Positions 53,287 through 60,205 of a stretch of 64,000 bases of DNA are shown piece after piece. This DNA comes from Microbacterium sp. YJN-G. GTDB taxonomy: Bacteria; Actinomycetota; Actinomycetes; Actinomycetales; Microbacteriaceae. Positions within the stretch are counted from its first letter, which is position 1, and every line of letters starts with the position of its first letter. The position numbers and the translations under genes are program-made. Under the pieces are notes generated by a model that made no database searches, was not told where the DNA came from, and saw only the letters and a program-made list of their open reading frames with translations. The stretch lies in assembly GCF_015040615.1 (NCBI RefSeq), contig NZ_CP060402.1:1860001-1924000 (forward strand), in the 5' to 3' direction.

Positions 53287-53733
53287 CTAGGCGCGGATCT
53301 GGGCGATGACTTCGCCGTATTCCGTCTCGCCGATCGGTTCGAAACCAACGCGGCGGAAGAATGCTTCGGGGCCGCTCTCGCCGGGTTCGTAGATGACGTT
53401 GACGTGGTCGAAACCGCGGCGGCGTGCTTCTTCCCGTAGATGCTCTACTGCGAAACGTCCGATTCCGCGGTCTTGGTCGATCCCTTCCACATTGATGCGC
53501 CAGAGGACGGAGCGGAACTCTTCTCGCGGCGCTTCGGGGTCGAAGTTCGCGCTGATGAACGCGACGACTCTGTCATCGTCACGCACGACGCGCTGCCACG
53601 AGGTCTTCGGGTCCACCACTGCGGTGGCCAGACCGTAGCTCACCGGAGCAAGGAACTCTTCTTGCCCGGGCTTCAAGGACATCGTGTTGACCTCGACGAT
53701 CGTCGAGGCGGAAAGCTCTTCCAATTTGAGCAC
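53287..53733 (-). CDS. GNAT-family N-acetyltransferase
   Basis: A 148-residue acetyltransferase. The core shows DRVVAFISANFD, then WRINVEGIDQDRGIGRFAVEHL (the acetyl-CoA pyrophosphate loop, with Q-x2-G-I-G), and YEPGESGPEAFFRRVGFEPIG. The order matches spermidine/diamine-acetyltransferase-like GNAT proteins, but the substrate is unknown. GTG 53733 has AGGAG eight bases upstream and lies four bases after the stop of the MerR-like regulator, so the two share a transcript. Confidence 0.85.
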   Translation of the reverse strand: MLKLEELSASTIVEVNTMSLKPGQEEFLAPVSYGLATAVVDPKTSWQRVVRDDDRVVAFISANFDPEAPREEFRSVLWRINVEGIDQDRGIGRFAVEHLREEARRRGFDHVNVIYEPGESGPEAFFRRVGFEPIGETEYGEVIAQIRA

Positions 53734-53737
53734 GAGC

Positions 53738-54031
53738 TTATCTCCTCTCTCGTTGTGCCCGTAGGAGGGTGTTCTCGTCCTGTAGCGAGATCACCATGGC
53801 GATGCCGGCGAGGTTGAGCCCGGCATCGAGCAGGTCGCCGATGCGGCGCAGCCGATCCAGGTCGTCTTCGCTGTACCGACGGGTGCCGCCCTCGGTCCGT
53901 TCAGGTTCCAACAGGCCGCGCGCTTCGTACGCGCGCAGGTTCTGCACCCCGGTACCGACCAGTTCCGCGGCCACCGAGATGCCGTACACCGCCCGCGCTC
54001 GGTCCGGCCTCCCACCCGTCACTCCATCCAC
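53738..54031 (-). CDS. HspR-like MerR-family regulator
   Basis: A 97-residue protein with one MerR-type winged helix: AVYGISVAAELVGTGVQNLR, then AYEARGLLEPERTEGGTRRYSEDDLDRL, and a short coiled coil (NLAGIAMVISLQDENTLLRAQ). The VYGISVAAEL and INLAGI-like segments resemble HspR, the repressor of dnaK and small heat-shock genes in actinobacteria. It diverges from hsp20 across 153 bases holding inverted repeats, so control of hsp20 and of itself is likely. GTG 54031 is used, with GAGG six bases upstream; GTG 54022 is an alternative. Confidence 0.8.
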   Translation of the reverse strand: MDGVTGGRPDRARAVYGISVAAELVGTGVQNLRAYEARGLLEPERTEGGTRRYSEDDLDRLRRIGDLLDAGLNLAGIAMVISLQDENTLLRAQRERR

Positions 54032-54947: not shown

Positions 54948-55079
54948 TGACCCGTTCCCGAGATGACTGCTCACCCCGCCCGCAACATTTTCCTTCTCAG
55001 GCGTCCGCCGCAGAACGCGAGACGCCACCGCCCGAACGGCGCTCAAGATCCGGCGGGCCGGGCGGCAGCCGTTCTCCTG

Positions 55080-55106
55080 CCGTGGCCCCGGCTGCCGGGG
55101 CCACGG
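55080..55106. other. Perfect 12-bp hairpin upstream of the J-domain gene
   Basis: CCGTGGCCCCGG, loop CTG, CCGGGGCCACGG, with no T run on either strand. It lies 30 bases before ATG 55137, where it could hold back translation or transcription of the J-domain gene. Confidence 0.6.
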
Positions 55107-55136
55107 CGAACCCACCACATCCAAGCCGTTCCCACC

Positions 55137-55517
55137 ATGACTATTCAGCAGCCCGACTTCTACACCATCTTGAAAGTGCCATCGACAGCGACGCACACAG
55201 AGATCAGCCGCGCGTACCGGGCACTGCTGCGCCGCCACCACCCGGACACTCGCAACGACCCCCAGTCGCCGCCCGATCGATCCGACCCGGTGCTGCAGCA
55301 CCTGTTCACCGCCTACGCAGTCCTCGGTGACCCGGTGCGCCGAGCCGACTACGACCAGCGGAGAACCCCACCCGCGGCCGGTCCCGCACGTCCAGCACCA
55401 CAGCCATCACCGGCCACCTCGTCCTCCTGCAGGAAGAGTCCCATCATCGCGGGGCCCGTTCGCTGGCGCCCGAGCCCGGACAGGACCGGATCAGGGCAAC
55501 GAACAGCGGCCGGATAG
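55137..55517 (+). CDS. Small J-domain protein
   Basis: A 126-residue protein with an N-terminal J domain: DFYTILKVPSTATHTEISRA, YRALLRRHHPDTRND (HPD motif intact), then LFTAYAVLGDPVRRADYDQR. The C-terminal 45 residues are Pro/Ser/Arg-rich, with IIAGPVRWRPSP, which also ends related small J proteins. It may recruit DnaK to Hsp20-held substrates. No ribosome-binding site precedes ATG 55137, and a strong hairpin lies just upstream, so expression may be low or conditional. Confidence 0.75.
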   Translation: MTIQQPDFYTILKVPSTATHTEISRAYRALLRRHHPDTRNDPQSPPDRSDPVLQHLFTAYAVLGDPVRRADYDQRRTPPAAGPARPAPQPSPATSSSCRKSPIIAGPVRWRPSPDRTGSGQRTAAG

Positions 55518-56679: not shown

Positions 56680-56780
56680 GGAGTCCTCCAGACATGGTCG
56701 TACTTGTCTGCGGCTCCAGGGCGTTGAACGGTCCGGCCCCAGTCGTTCCCTGTGATGCTTCACTGCTTTACCCGAGTAGT

Positions 56781-58186
56781 GCCCCTTAAGGTGGTGTAGC
56801 CCGCGGTGGCCGGCTCGTCGCTCGCGACGTAAGCGCGGTCACCGTGTGATCCTTCGAGAAGTCTCTTACCTCCACTCGAAAGGCATCATCACGATGACCG
56901 CACTTCATATTGTCGACCCTGCGAGCGTGCTCGCTGAAGCCCTGACCGACGCGTCGCCGGATCTGATGCGCAGCCTGCTGCAAACTACGATCAATGCGCT
57001 GCTGTCCGCTGACGCGGACGCCGTCGTCGGCGCGGAGTGGGGTAAGCCCTCCCCGGACCGCGTCGCGCAGCGCAACGGCTACCGGCACCGCGACCTGGAC
57101 ACCCGCGTCGGCACCATCGACGTCGCGATCCCGAAGCTGCGGGCGGGCACCTACTTCCCGGAATGGCTTCTCGAGCGCCGCAAACGAGCAGAGACAGCAC
57201 TGATCACCGTGATCGCGGACTGCTACCTCGCCGGCGTCTCCACGAGGCGGATGGACAAGCTGGTGAAGACCCTCGGGATCCACTCGTTGTCGAAGCCGCA
57301 GGTCTCGCGGATGGCGGCCGAGCTCGACGAGCACGTCGACCAGTTCCGCCACCGGCCGCTCGGCGATGCGGGTCCGTTCACGTTCGTCGCGGCCGACGCT
57401 CTGACGATGAAGGTCCGCGAAGGAGGGCGCGTGATCAACGCGGTGGTGCTGGTCGCGACCGGCGTCAACGCCGACGGACGCCGCGAAGTCCTCGGGCTTC
57501 GGGTCGCGACCTCAGAGACCACAGCGGCTTGGAACTCGTTCTTCGCCGACCTCGTCGCCCGCGGTCTGAGCGGCGTGCGGCTGGTCACCAGCGACGCCCA
57601 CGCCGGGCTGGTGGAAGCCATCGCCGCGAACCTGCCGGGCGCGGTCTGGCAGAGATGTCGTACCCATTACGCGGCGAATCTGATGTCCGTGACGCCGAAG
57701 GCCATGTGGCCGGCTGTGAAAGCGATGCTGCACTCCGTCTACGACCAACCCGACGCCGACAGCGTTCACGCACAGTTCGACCGGCTCCTAGACTACGTCG
57801 ACGACAAGCTCCCCGACGCGCACGAGCACCTCGATGCTGCCCGGGCGGACATCCTCGCCTTCACCGGGTTCCCCGAAGGGCTCTGGCAGCAGATCTGGTC
57901 CAACAACCCCAACGAGAGACTCAACCGCGAGATCCGCCGCCGCACCGACAGCGTCGGCATCTTCCCCAACCGCGACGCGATTATCCGCCTCGTCGGCGCC
58001 GTCCTCGCCGAGCAGACAGACGAATGGGCCGAAGGGCGCCGCTACCTCGGCCTCGACATCCTCGCCAAGTCCCGCCTCACCCTCGTCACCGACACCGGAC
58101 CCGAGGAGGTGAGCGACAACATCCTCGAACTCAGCGCCTGACCCAGCATCGAAGGATCACGAAACGGCTACACCACTACCGGGGAC
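56781..58186 (+). mobile_element. IS256-family insertion sequence
   Basis: About 1.4 kb with one transposase. The ends share an inverted GTGGTGTAGCC (56791-56801, and its complement at 58166-58176), and further out CCCC blocks also match, giving imperfect terminal repeats of about 21 bases. No clear target duplication is visible in the flanking eight bases, so the exact ends are uncertain by a few bases. It sits between the integrase and excisionase genes. Confidence 0.8.
56894..58141 (+). CDS. IS256-family (mutator-type) transposase
   Basis: A 415-residue DDE transposase, full length for the family. N-terminal: DAVVGAEWGKPSPDRVAQRN and GYRHRDLDTRVGTIDVAIPKLR. Catalytic residues: the first aspartate in VAADALTMKVRE, the second in VTSDAHAGLVEAI, and the glutamate in NNPNERLNREIRRRTDSVGIFPN. 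The RCRTHYAANL motif is conserved. No frameshift or stop, so it is potentially active. ATG 56894 is preferred; an open frame begins 48 bases earlier without homology. Confidence 0.93.
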   Translation: MTALHIVDPASVLAEALTDASPDLMRSLLQTTINALLSADADAVVGAEWGKPSPDRVAQRNGYRHRDLDTRVGTIDVAIPKLRAGTYFPEWLLERRKRAETALITVIADCYLAGVSTRRMDKLVKTLGIHSLSKPQVSRMAAELDEHVDQFRHRPLGDAGPFTFVAADALTMKVREGGRVINAVVLVATGVNADGRREVLGLRVATSETTAAWNSFFADLVARGLSGVRLVTSDAHAGLVEAIAANLPGAVWQRCRTHYAANLMSVTPKAMWPAVKAMLHSVYDQPDADSVHAQFDRLLDYVDDKLPDAHEHLDAARADILAFTGFPEGLWQQIWSNNPNERLNREIRRRTDSVGIFPNRDAIIRLVGAVLAEQTDEWAEGRRYLGLDILAKSRLTLVTDTGPEEVSDNILELSA

Positions 58187-58292
58187 TTGACCTTTACCCG
58201 GCGGGCAAAGCGCCTACACGTCGTGGTGGTTCGCTACTTCTTCCCCATCAACGACGTCCGGCAGGCCTCAGGGGTGCATTACTACGCTAGGT

Positions 58293-58308: not shown

Positions 58309-59610
58309 TCACTGAGCCTCGGCATCCACTCCGAACGCCACGCTCAGGCGGTCAGCGATCTTCCTGTCAGTCTCATCGTAGGAATGCGCGTAGATCGCCG
58401 CAGCGCGCATCGTCGTGTGGCCGAGTCGCTTCTGCACGTCAGGCACCGATGCACCGACCGAGTAAGCCAGCGACGCGCCTGTATGCCGCAGATCGTGCCA
58501 ACGCAGCGCAGGAAGCCCTACCTGCTCGCGCGCTCGCCGGAACATGTCGCCGAGCCAATGCCGCGTCAGGATCGCGCCTGAAGCCGTACCGAACATGAGT
58601 TCTTCAGCACCCTGATCGACGTACTGATCGAGGTGCTTCTTCAGCACGTCGATGACGAACCCCGGCAGCGCCACTGTCCTACGGGAGCCCGCCGTCTTGG
58701 TTGGGCCGAACACGGGAGTCTTGCCATCGACTTCGACGACAGCCCGCTCCACTCGCACAGTGCCGTTCTCGAGATCGATGTGCCGACGTGCCAGCGCTCG
58801 CAGCTCGCCTGACCGCAGACCTGACCATGCAGCCAGCGTCACGGCAGCCGCATAACGGTCAGGCATGGCCTCCGCGAGTGCCCGCACTTGTTCGGCTGTC
58901 GCGGGCTTCCGGTCTATCACCGGCGAAGCGCTCGCGTTGCGCAATCGGCAGGGATTCTTGGCGATGATGTCATCGCGTTCAGCCGTCGCCAGGATCGTCT
59001 TCAGCGCCCGATATGAGGCCGCTACGGCTGCTGAGCCGTCGCCGCGATCTGAGCGCGCCTGAGAGCCTGGGAGCGGCGATCCTGCCGCCTCCCATGCGTC
59101 ACGCACCGACCGAGGAATACGCCCAGTGACGGCAACCTGGATGCCGTTGGCGAGTGCCCATCCTCGAACAGGGTTCTCCTTCGGCGGCTCCGGCTCTGCG
59201 TGCCGCTCAGCCGCCTCTCTGAGGCATTCTGCGCGCCAGGCATTTACCTTCACCGGGGTGAGCGCCGAAAGTGCGAGCGCACCGAGCTTGGGGATGATGT
59301 ACCGATCGAGCGCACCACGGTAGAACTCGACGGTTCTCGGCGCCAGGTCGGTCCTGGACCTGAGCCAGTCTTCGGCGTATCCGCCGACTGTCTCCGCGCC
59401 GAGACGAGGGTCGATCCAGACCCCGCCGCGTAGTGAGTTCTCTTGGTCTGCGAGCCATGCCCGTGCCGCCGGTCTGGAGTCGAACGTCTGCGGCGCCCGG
59501 AAGGTCTTCCCCTTGAGGCGATAGAAAGCTCTGAAGCGCTCGCCGCGTACCTCGACCGTGCCGAACTCGGCGGGATTCCGCCGAGTAAGCCCGGTCTTCC
59601 GCCTGGTCAC
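58309..59610 (-). CDS. int: Tyrosine integrase with an Lsr2-like insertion
   Basis: A 433-residue site-specific recombinase. An N-terminal arm-binding region is followed by the core-binding domain (TVEFYRGALDRYIIPKLGAL) and then the catalytic domain with R266 (SGLRSGEL), K305, H372-x-x-R375 (WHDLRH), H398 (LGHTT) and nucleophile Y407 (AAIYAHS): the full set. Residues about 146-178 (NPVRGWALANGIQVAVTGRI, then PRSVRDAWEAA) read like the DNA-binding fold of Lsr2, inserted inside the core-binding domain before AVAASYRALKTIL. GTG 59610 overlaps the upstream gene as GTGA. It probably targets the adjacent tRNA-Ala. Confidence 0.92.
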   Translation of the reverse strand: MTRRKTGLTRRNPAEFGTVEVRGERFRAFYRLKGKTFRAPQTFDSRPAARAWLADQENSLRGGVWIDPRLGAETVGGYAEDWLRSRTDLAPRTVEFYRGALDRYIIPKLGALALSALTPVKVNAWRAECLREAAERHAEPEPPKENPVRGWALANGIQVAVTGRIPRSVRDAWEAAGSPLPGSQARSDRGDGSAAVAASYRALKTILATAERDDIIAKNPCRLRNASASPVIDRKPATAEQVRALAEAMPDRYAAAVTLAAWSGLRSGELRALARRHIDLENGTVRVERAVVEVDGKTPVFGPTKTAGSRRTVALPGFVIDVLKKHLDQYVDQGAEELMFGTASGAILTRHWLGDMFRRAREQVGLPALRWHDLRHTGASLAYSVGASVPDVQKRLGHTTMRAAAIYAHSYDETDRKIADRLSVAFGVDAEAQ

Positions 59611-60017
59611 GCCGAGACCCCGAGGCCAGCGCGAGCGGCTGCGCGCAGGAAGTCGTCGGCGTCGACAGTGAACCAGGTGCTCGACATGACGACGCTGAGC
59701 TGCTCGCCATGCCTGTCGATGTGCATGACGCGCCCGCCATCGAACTCCGGAACGCGAACCACTTCCTCGCCAGCCGCGATCTGCCGGAGCGCTGCGAGGA
59801 AGTCGCCTACCTCGAACGCGTAGCAGGTGCCCTGCTTGCCGCTGTCGACGCAGACAAGGCCCGGCACCACCTGAATCTCGACGCGACGAACAGTGCCGCT
59901 CACGGTCACCCGCGCGGCTGACATCCGCTCCGGGCGGATCGACTCGACCTCGAGCATCGTTGACAGATCGGCCAGCAGGGCGTCGACCGCTTCAGGGGTG
60001 ATGTCATCGTTGAACAT
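59607..60017 (-). CDS. Hypothetical protein coupled to the integrase
   Basis: A 136-residue acidic protein, TPEAVDALLADLSTMLEVES near the start, then a beta-rich middle (VEIQVVPGLVCVDSGKQGTC) and VPEFDGGRVMHIDRHGEQLS. It ends with TWFTVDADDFLRAAARAGLG. No family recognised. Its stop overlaps the integrase GTG, so it is translated with it; a role in setting integrase level or a partner function is possible (inference). It is the gene nearest the tRNA attachment region. Confidence 0.6.
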   Translation of the reverse strand: MFNDDITPEAVDALLADLSTMLEVESIRPERMSAARVTVSGTVRRVEIQVVPGLVCVDSGKQGTCYAFEVGDFLAALRQIAAGEEVVRVPEFDGGRVMHIDRHGEQLSVVMSSTWFTVDADDFLRAAARAGLGVSA

Positions 60018-60120: not shown

Positions 60121-60132
60121 GTGATTACTCAG
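60121..60132. repeat. 12-bp direct repeat, right copy
   Basis: GTGATTACTCAG ends at the base next to the tRNA-Ala 3' end (60133). See the copy at 58293-58304. Confidence 0.45.
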
Positions 60133-60205
60133 TGGACCTGAGGGGACTCGAACCCCTGACCCCCTGCATGCCATGCAGGTGCGCTACCAGCTGCGCCACA
60201 GGCCC
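60133..60205 (-). tRNA. tRNA-Ala (GGC)
   Basis: A 73-base cloverleaf on the minus strand: acceptor GGGCCTG with CAGGTCC plus discriminator A, D arm with GCGCAGCTGGTAGCGC, anticodon stem CCTGC/GCAGG with loop ATGGCAT (anticodon GGC), T arm CAGGGGTTCGAGTCCCCT. CCA is not encoded. The 3' end faces the integrase, the usual geometry for a tRNA attachment site. Confidence 0.95.

Follow-up and report, generated by a model that had tools for sequence, protein, structure and literature searches.

A tRNA-adjacent tyrosine integrase from Microbacterium with an Lsr2-type DNA-binding domain inside its core-binding domain

Bacteria such as Microbacterium use the protein Lsr2 to silence foreign DNA. Lsr2 itself combines an N-terminal dimerization domain with a DNA-binding domain (PF11774 plus PF23359; PDB 2kng, 6qkp). 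The nearest published case that we found to the protein described here comes from cluster J mycobacteriophages (Omega, Corndog); it is Ku-Lsr2, in which a phage DNA-handling protein carries an Lsr2 DNA-binding domain with the RGR motif as a C-terminal fusion (PMC8612146). A second parallel is MSMEG_1060, a free protein that has a basic tail; this Lsr2 paralogue lacks Q/RGR and is reported to bind GC-rich fragments as well (PMC8125055). The same paper reports that mutation of Q/RGR abolishes DNA binding by Lsr2 and H-NS (PMC8125055). Ler, which carries VGR, is reported to insert only its arginine. The window analysed here is a stretch of 64,000 nucleotides from Microbacterium sp. YJN-G (contig NZ_CP060402.1, positions 1,860,001 to 1,924,000), and it encodes a tyrosine integrase with an Lsr2-like domain inside its core-binding domain. 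Tyrosine integrases of the phage and ICE type, such as Tn1549 Int (6en2) and lambda Int (1z19), differ in this respect, and we know of none with an Lsr2 domain. A literature search, with subscription journals mostly outside its scope, found no published description of such an integrase, and none is named in passages of PMC7074111 and PMC8612146. Unlike the Ku-Lsr2 fusion, the domain described here is an internal insertion in a recombinase and lacks RGR, and unlike MSMEG_1060 it sits in an enzyme.

The integrase is encoded on the minus strand (59610 to 58309), which a sequence-only reading of this DNA had not stated. The features discussed below are, in window coordinates:

56846..58141, plus strand: Mutator-family transposase (PF00872), beside the 3' end of the integrase gene
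58309..59610, minus strand: tyrosine integrase gene, 433 aa, GTG start (open reading frame, Pfam, PHROGs, AlphaFold model)
58372..58899, minus strand: catalytic domain (residues 238-413) with R266, K305, H372, R375, H398 and Y407 (PF00589, near-invariant columns)
58921..59037, minus strand: helix D of the core-binding domain with the linker that leads into the catalytic domain (residues 192-230; model, fold matches)
59038..59196, minus strand: complete insertion that splits the core-binding domain (residues 139-191), with linker, Lsr2-like domain and flexible linker (insert-free alignments, model)
59083..59172, minus strand: Lsr2-like DNA-binding domain (residues 147-176), with TGR for the RGR of Lsr2 (PF23359, phrog_1223, 2kng fold, motif)
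59197..59409, minus strand: helices A-C of the core-binding domain (residues 68-138; PF14659, model, fold matches)
59425..59562, minus strand: putative arm-binding domain of three strands and a helix (residues 17-62; AlphaFold secondary structure)
59607..60017, minus strand: 136-aa open reading frame sharing 4 bases with the start of the integrase gene; its counterpart in G671, a genome of the same genus, is 87% identical
60132..60205, minus strand: tRNA-Ala (GGC), probable attachment gene, 522 bp upstream of the integrase start; the same tRNA end is duplicated in the relative G545

Apart from its insertion, the protein has the make-up of an ordinary tyrosine recombinase. Pfam matches the catalytic domain at residues 238-413 with 72.1 bits (cut-off 27.1) and the SAM-like domain PF14659 at residues 75-127. 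All six residues of the R-K-H-R-H-Y set are present, as the sequence-only reading had claimed, and in an alignment of 53 integrases each of these columns is at least 90% invariant. The core-binding folds 2kd1 (106 residues, 2.0 Å) and 3lys (97 residues, 1.5 Å) align across the insert, so that the core-binding domain appears otherwise normal. The insert-free integrases aligned with the window integrase lack the insertion and join helices C and D by a short loop.

The sequence-only reading had seen the pattern of the Lsr2 C-terminal domain at residues of about 146-178, splitting the core-binding domain, and had named an HMM search against the Lsr2 family, an AlphaFold model and a survey of integrases as checks. 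Each of these bears the reading out. PF23359 (Lsr2_DNA-bd) matches residues 147-176 with 34.1 bits (cut-off 26.9, E 1.7e-8), and the Lsr2-like phrog_1223 matches residues 138-179 (E 1.1e-7). In tblastn searches of phages and plasmids the insert region found genes annotated as Lsr2 (best E ~0.005 in phages and 0.004 in plasmids), and those in phages adjoin integrases. Since Pfam, PHROG and tblastn matches agree, the Lsr2 assignment is right and goes beyond chance. The AlphaFold model places two short helices (147-154 and 167-175) after helix C (119-138) and before helix D (193-212), at the predicted split point and apart from the ordinary core-binding helix bundle, with block pLDDT values of 84, 94, 95 and 82 over residues 141-180. 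A profile of 21 inserts compared with PDB sequences recovered Lsr2 with E 5.6e-10, the next family following at E 0.18. A model built from insert sequences alone (45 residues) reached a pLDDT of 80.6, and its best PDB match was 2kng, the Lsr2 C-domain (rmsd 0.5 Å over 30 columns, probability 0.99), a match with a Foldseek E of 0.22 for a model of only 45 residues, the third row of the list having a probability of 0.05. The dimerization domain PF11774 was not found in the window integrase by Pfam at E up to 10. The host genome encodes a full Lsr2, and PF11774 is present in that protein.

The survey returned 34 different integrases that all carry the insert at this position. They come from genomes of the window's class, from an Actinomycetales MAG (L001) and from an IMG/VR contig (L145), the last with two copies. 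We searched with the window integrase in 198 relatives, with PF23359 in 249 family genomes, with the insert region in 366 genus genomes and 394 class genomes and with the insert in 376 order genomes, and we scanned genome and viral contigs; the family searches of genomes covered the window's class, their result sets overlap, and the counts are lower bounds. The genus sample had the insert in 9 of 366 genomes at 77 bits or more, the next best match scoring 40 bits, and the class sample in 10 of 394 (7 strong, 3 at 41-46 bits). The figure for the order sample is 13 of 376, confirmed by reading the locus; 13 regions were examined in that search, 10 with insert integrases and 3 without (L286, L287, L289). 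No confirmed insert integrase came from the viral-contig scan with the window integrase alone as query. Among 21 members, PF23359 was detected in 18 (E up to 0.01) and the integrase domain in 20, and phrog_1223 matches all 21 inserts. Four loci (L278, L279, L277 and L145) each hold two insert-bearing integrases ~5 to 12 kb apart, and in L278 and L279 a single pair of tRNA attachment copies encloses the two.

Within this family the domain resembles Lsr2 in fold and sequence family, in the R-x-WA helix, the G-R loop and the second helix. It differs from Lsr2 in lacking the dimerization domain, in its position inside an enzyme, and in the loop, where the AT-hook-like motif RGR or QGR occurs in none of 34 inserts. 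The motif there is TGR in 26, the window integrase among them, TGK in 4, SGR in 2, TGQ in 1 and TGA in 1, with L284 read by eye as TGR. By comparison, the 30 true Lsr2 domains with high scores all read RGR, though as a sample they are biased, being the best-scoring PF23359 matches and all from the window's genome family. The second clamp position is R or K in 32 of the 34 inserts. None of the 21 aligned inserts departs from R149, W151, G163 or G177, R149 of the window integrase being what we take to be R84 in the numbering of Mtb Lsr2. In the second helix nearly all inserts have W where Lsr2 has Y, mostly followed by A-G-x-P. The 30-residue domain carries a mean charge of +2.3 in the inserts versus +0.6 in the 30 Lsr2 domains, and the 20 residues that precede it average +1.9 versus +3.2 in Lsr2, with -3 in the window integrase. 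Outside the integrases, the proteins L286 and L287 read KGR at the loop, and two proteins from the window's genus and family (L071:1936-4335 and L074:3616-5496, both minus strand) join an RNase_T exonuclease and a BRCT domain to an Lsr2 DNA-binding domain, which in L071 keeps RGR.

How the insert spread was addressed with a tree of 65 integrases over 295 columns outside the insert, comprising 32 insert-free rows and all insert rows except L123, which had too many gaps (33 of 34). The insert rows form one clade of 31 (ultrafast bootstrap 100, SH-aLRT 99), and two rows from another genome family (f35) stand apart from it. None of 200 bootstrap trees needs only one insert change (5-95% range 2-2), a count of changes that cannot tell gain from loss of the insert. 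Holding all insert rows together gave a p-AU of 0.0099 against a single origin, a value to be read with caution because the grouping was chosen after the first tree. An earlier tree of 52 rows had placed insert-free rows inside the main insert group, a feature that is gone with more rows. The f35 inserts bear the same TGR and A-G-x-P marks as the main clade, and hence the already altered domain seems either to have moved between integrase lineages or to have been taken twice from one source. In a single pairwise comparison with G671, dN/dS was 0.04 for helices A-C, 0.12 for the catalytic domain and 0.21 for the Lsr2-like domain; we count the value of ~0.2 against this nearest relative in favour of the clamp explanation given below.

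Read from the layout of their loci, the insert integrases integrate at tRNA 3' ends. A same-strand tRNA gene lies directly upstream in 24 of 34 cases (the window and 23 of 33 others), with its 3' end no more than ~520 bp away, or else within the N-terminal, unstarted part of the open frame; 18 of these are tRNA-Gly, 4 tRNA-Ala, 1 tRNA-Thr and 1 tRNA-Lys. Among the ten without an upstream tRNA, L246, L282, the first copy of L145 and the second copy of L277 are at contig or record edges, and the insert integrase of L231 adjoins a further attachment copy. In 13 of 29 loci an exact copy of 42-49 bp of the tRNA-Gly 3' half, starting at about the anticodon loop, is found beyond the integrase and closes elements of 2.6 to 16.4 kb (2.6 kb in L280, 9.5 kb in L236), and the fourteenth of the 29, L234 (G545), has a 48 bp duplication of tRNA-Ala ~12 kb away. 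For L230, L235, L241, L242, L243, L244, L283, L285, L288 and L001, which have an adjacent tRNA, no copy was found in the retrieved DNA, which may be too short. Several of 28 scanned insert-free integrase loci also adjoin tRNA or tmRNA genes, and tRNA targeting is therefore not special to the insert. The two elements whose gene content was examined (L236, L239) encode excisionase-like, primase and primase-helicase genes, a content like that of phage satellites or small prophage-like elements. In L231:2956-17700 three copies of the tRNA-Gly end suggest two tandem elements, the tRNA-adjacent one with an insert-free integrase. The integrase-side inner flanks of L231, L232, L236, L237, L238 and L239 share, by eye and ~60-105 bp from the tRNA end, a stretch resembling GAGTTCAGACCCTCTCG and, after it, direct repeats resembling CGTGGACTCA; these are candidates for arm-type integrase sites.

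The window's own copy of the element is less complete. Matches between window and G671 run on the left up to 51160 and on the right resume across the tRNA and beyond 60343, the tRNA, the 136-aa frame and the integrase also matching; GC falls from ~0.72 to 0.65 from ~53 kb on. Match limits and GC fall together outline an island at roughly 51-60 kb. Its genes include a GNAT acetyltransferase with a MerR regulator at 53290-54031 (minus strand) and a DnaJ-domain protein at 54963-55514 (plus strand), and the 136-aa frame between tRNA-Ala and integrase had no Pfam or PHROG match at E 0.01. The integrase lies beside a tRNA gene, and BLAST searches of the window and of its genome turned up no further copy of the tRNA-Ala end. 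Given the 48-bp copy in G545, we read the far attachment end of the window as lost. Because this second copy is missing and a transposase lies beside the integrase, the element may no longer excise. The same Mutator-type transposase region, ~85% identical, occurs at window 56775-58192 and in L292:19096-19899 with L234:1-620, near the integrase in the window and near the attachment copy in G545, and in G671 the stretches homologous to the two sides of the transposase are ~0.2 kb apart.

We favour the explanation, at a probability of about 0.56, that this is a tRNA-targeting integrase with a captured and re-tuned Lsr2 fold that serves as an accessory DNA clamp at the attachment site. The Lsr2 C-terminal fold would have been taken up in the loop between helices C and D. 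With the 3' half of the tRNA gene bound by the core-binding and catalytic domains, the module would add minor-groove or backbone contacts beside the core site, and this extra clamp could strengthen attachment-site binding or the synapse. Since the AT-selective RGR appears re-tuned to TGR or TGK, the basic face would be kept, with probably less AT preference. The invariant R149, the R or K in 32 of 34 inserts, the charge of the domain and the parallels of Ler and MSMEG_1060 count for a DNA clamp; the less basic preceding residues and a dN/dS above that of the core-binding helices count against it. The main alternative is that the module may have lost DNA binding, since mutation of Q/RGR is reported to abolish it in Lsr2 and H-NS (PMC8125055).

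Among the rival roles, the one that survives best, although we consider it unlikely, is that of a docking domain for a protein, which could be an excisionase, a further integrase subunit or a nucleoid protein of the host. E2 enzymes have a small subunit-binding domain that binds proteins, and the Lsr2 C-domain resembles it. An E2 acyltransferase domain was indeed the second-best molecule in the PDB sequence search, without significance (E 0.18), and the linkers around the module vary in length. The altered minor-groove clamp in all 34 inserts would suit docking as well, but the invariant R149, the basic second clamp position and the positive charge fit DNA better.

Less probable still is the proposal of the sequence-only reading that the module gives the integrase a preference for DNA that is AT-rich, coated by Lsr2 or silenced, or lets it compete with Lsr2. 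The module does have the Lsr2 fold, in a host with a full Lsr2, and at the integrase end the first 100 bp inside the element exceed the locus in AT content in 13 of 13 cases (mean 0.41 vs 0.32). The far-end inner flanks are likewise AT-richer in 13 of 13, with no control for that end, and 14 of 14 attachment cores lie above locus AT (mean 0.41 vs 0.32, again with no control), an excess due to the tRNA sequence; by the standard of these genomes the cores are not GC-rich. However, insert-free integrases beside tRNA or tmRNA genes also have AT-richer flanks (5 of 6, mean excess 0.07 vs 0.085), and we therefore do not count the integrase-side excess as support. With RGR absent from every insert and attachment sites at tRNA ends, steering towards AT-rich or Lsr2-like DNA is not supported and the case for targeting of AT-rich or silenced DNA is weak, although AT reading by the insert keeps a small probability. 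The least probable of these views is that the integrase tolerates the insert as a passenger that plays no part in recombination, as the insert is kept across a clade of 31 and present in a second lineage, has four invariant residues and a dN/dS well below 1, even though that value exceeds the one for the flanking helices in the one pair compared and 32 related integrases in the tree do without it.

Returning to the clamp reading, we put forward more tentatively a broader view, which we hold to be somewhat less likely than not to be correct in full, that the DNA-binding domain of a silencer was captured in the integrase core-binding domain apparently twice and re-tuned into a clamp for attachment sites or junctions, and that it may be a general DNA-reading module of mobile elements distinct from Lsr2. 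The last point is raised because the TGR-type domain also occurs in tandem in a neighbouring protein. This is a 392-aa non-integrase frame beside an insert integrase (L277:7768-8943, minus strand) with two Lsr2-like domains, reading TGR and VGR, and a cysteine-rich part after them that matches phrog_4160 of unknown function. The integrases described here offer a natural case of a small, independently folding DNA-binding domain inside the integrase core-binding domain, in one tolerated loop and apparently acquired more than once. The case is informative about the ways in which integrases acquire contacts to their targets, and it points to a loop that can take up a DNA-binding domain of foreign origin. 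The Lsr2 fold is re-used on mobile elements in a form without its signature AT clamp, and if the clamp reading is true, part of the host's own xenogeneic silencer would have been turned into a part of the integration machinery.
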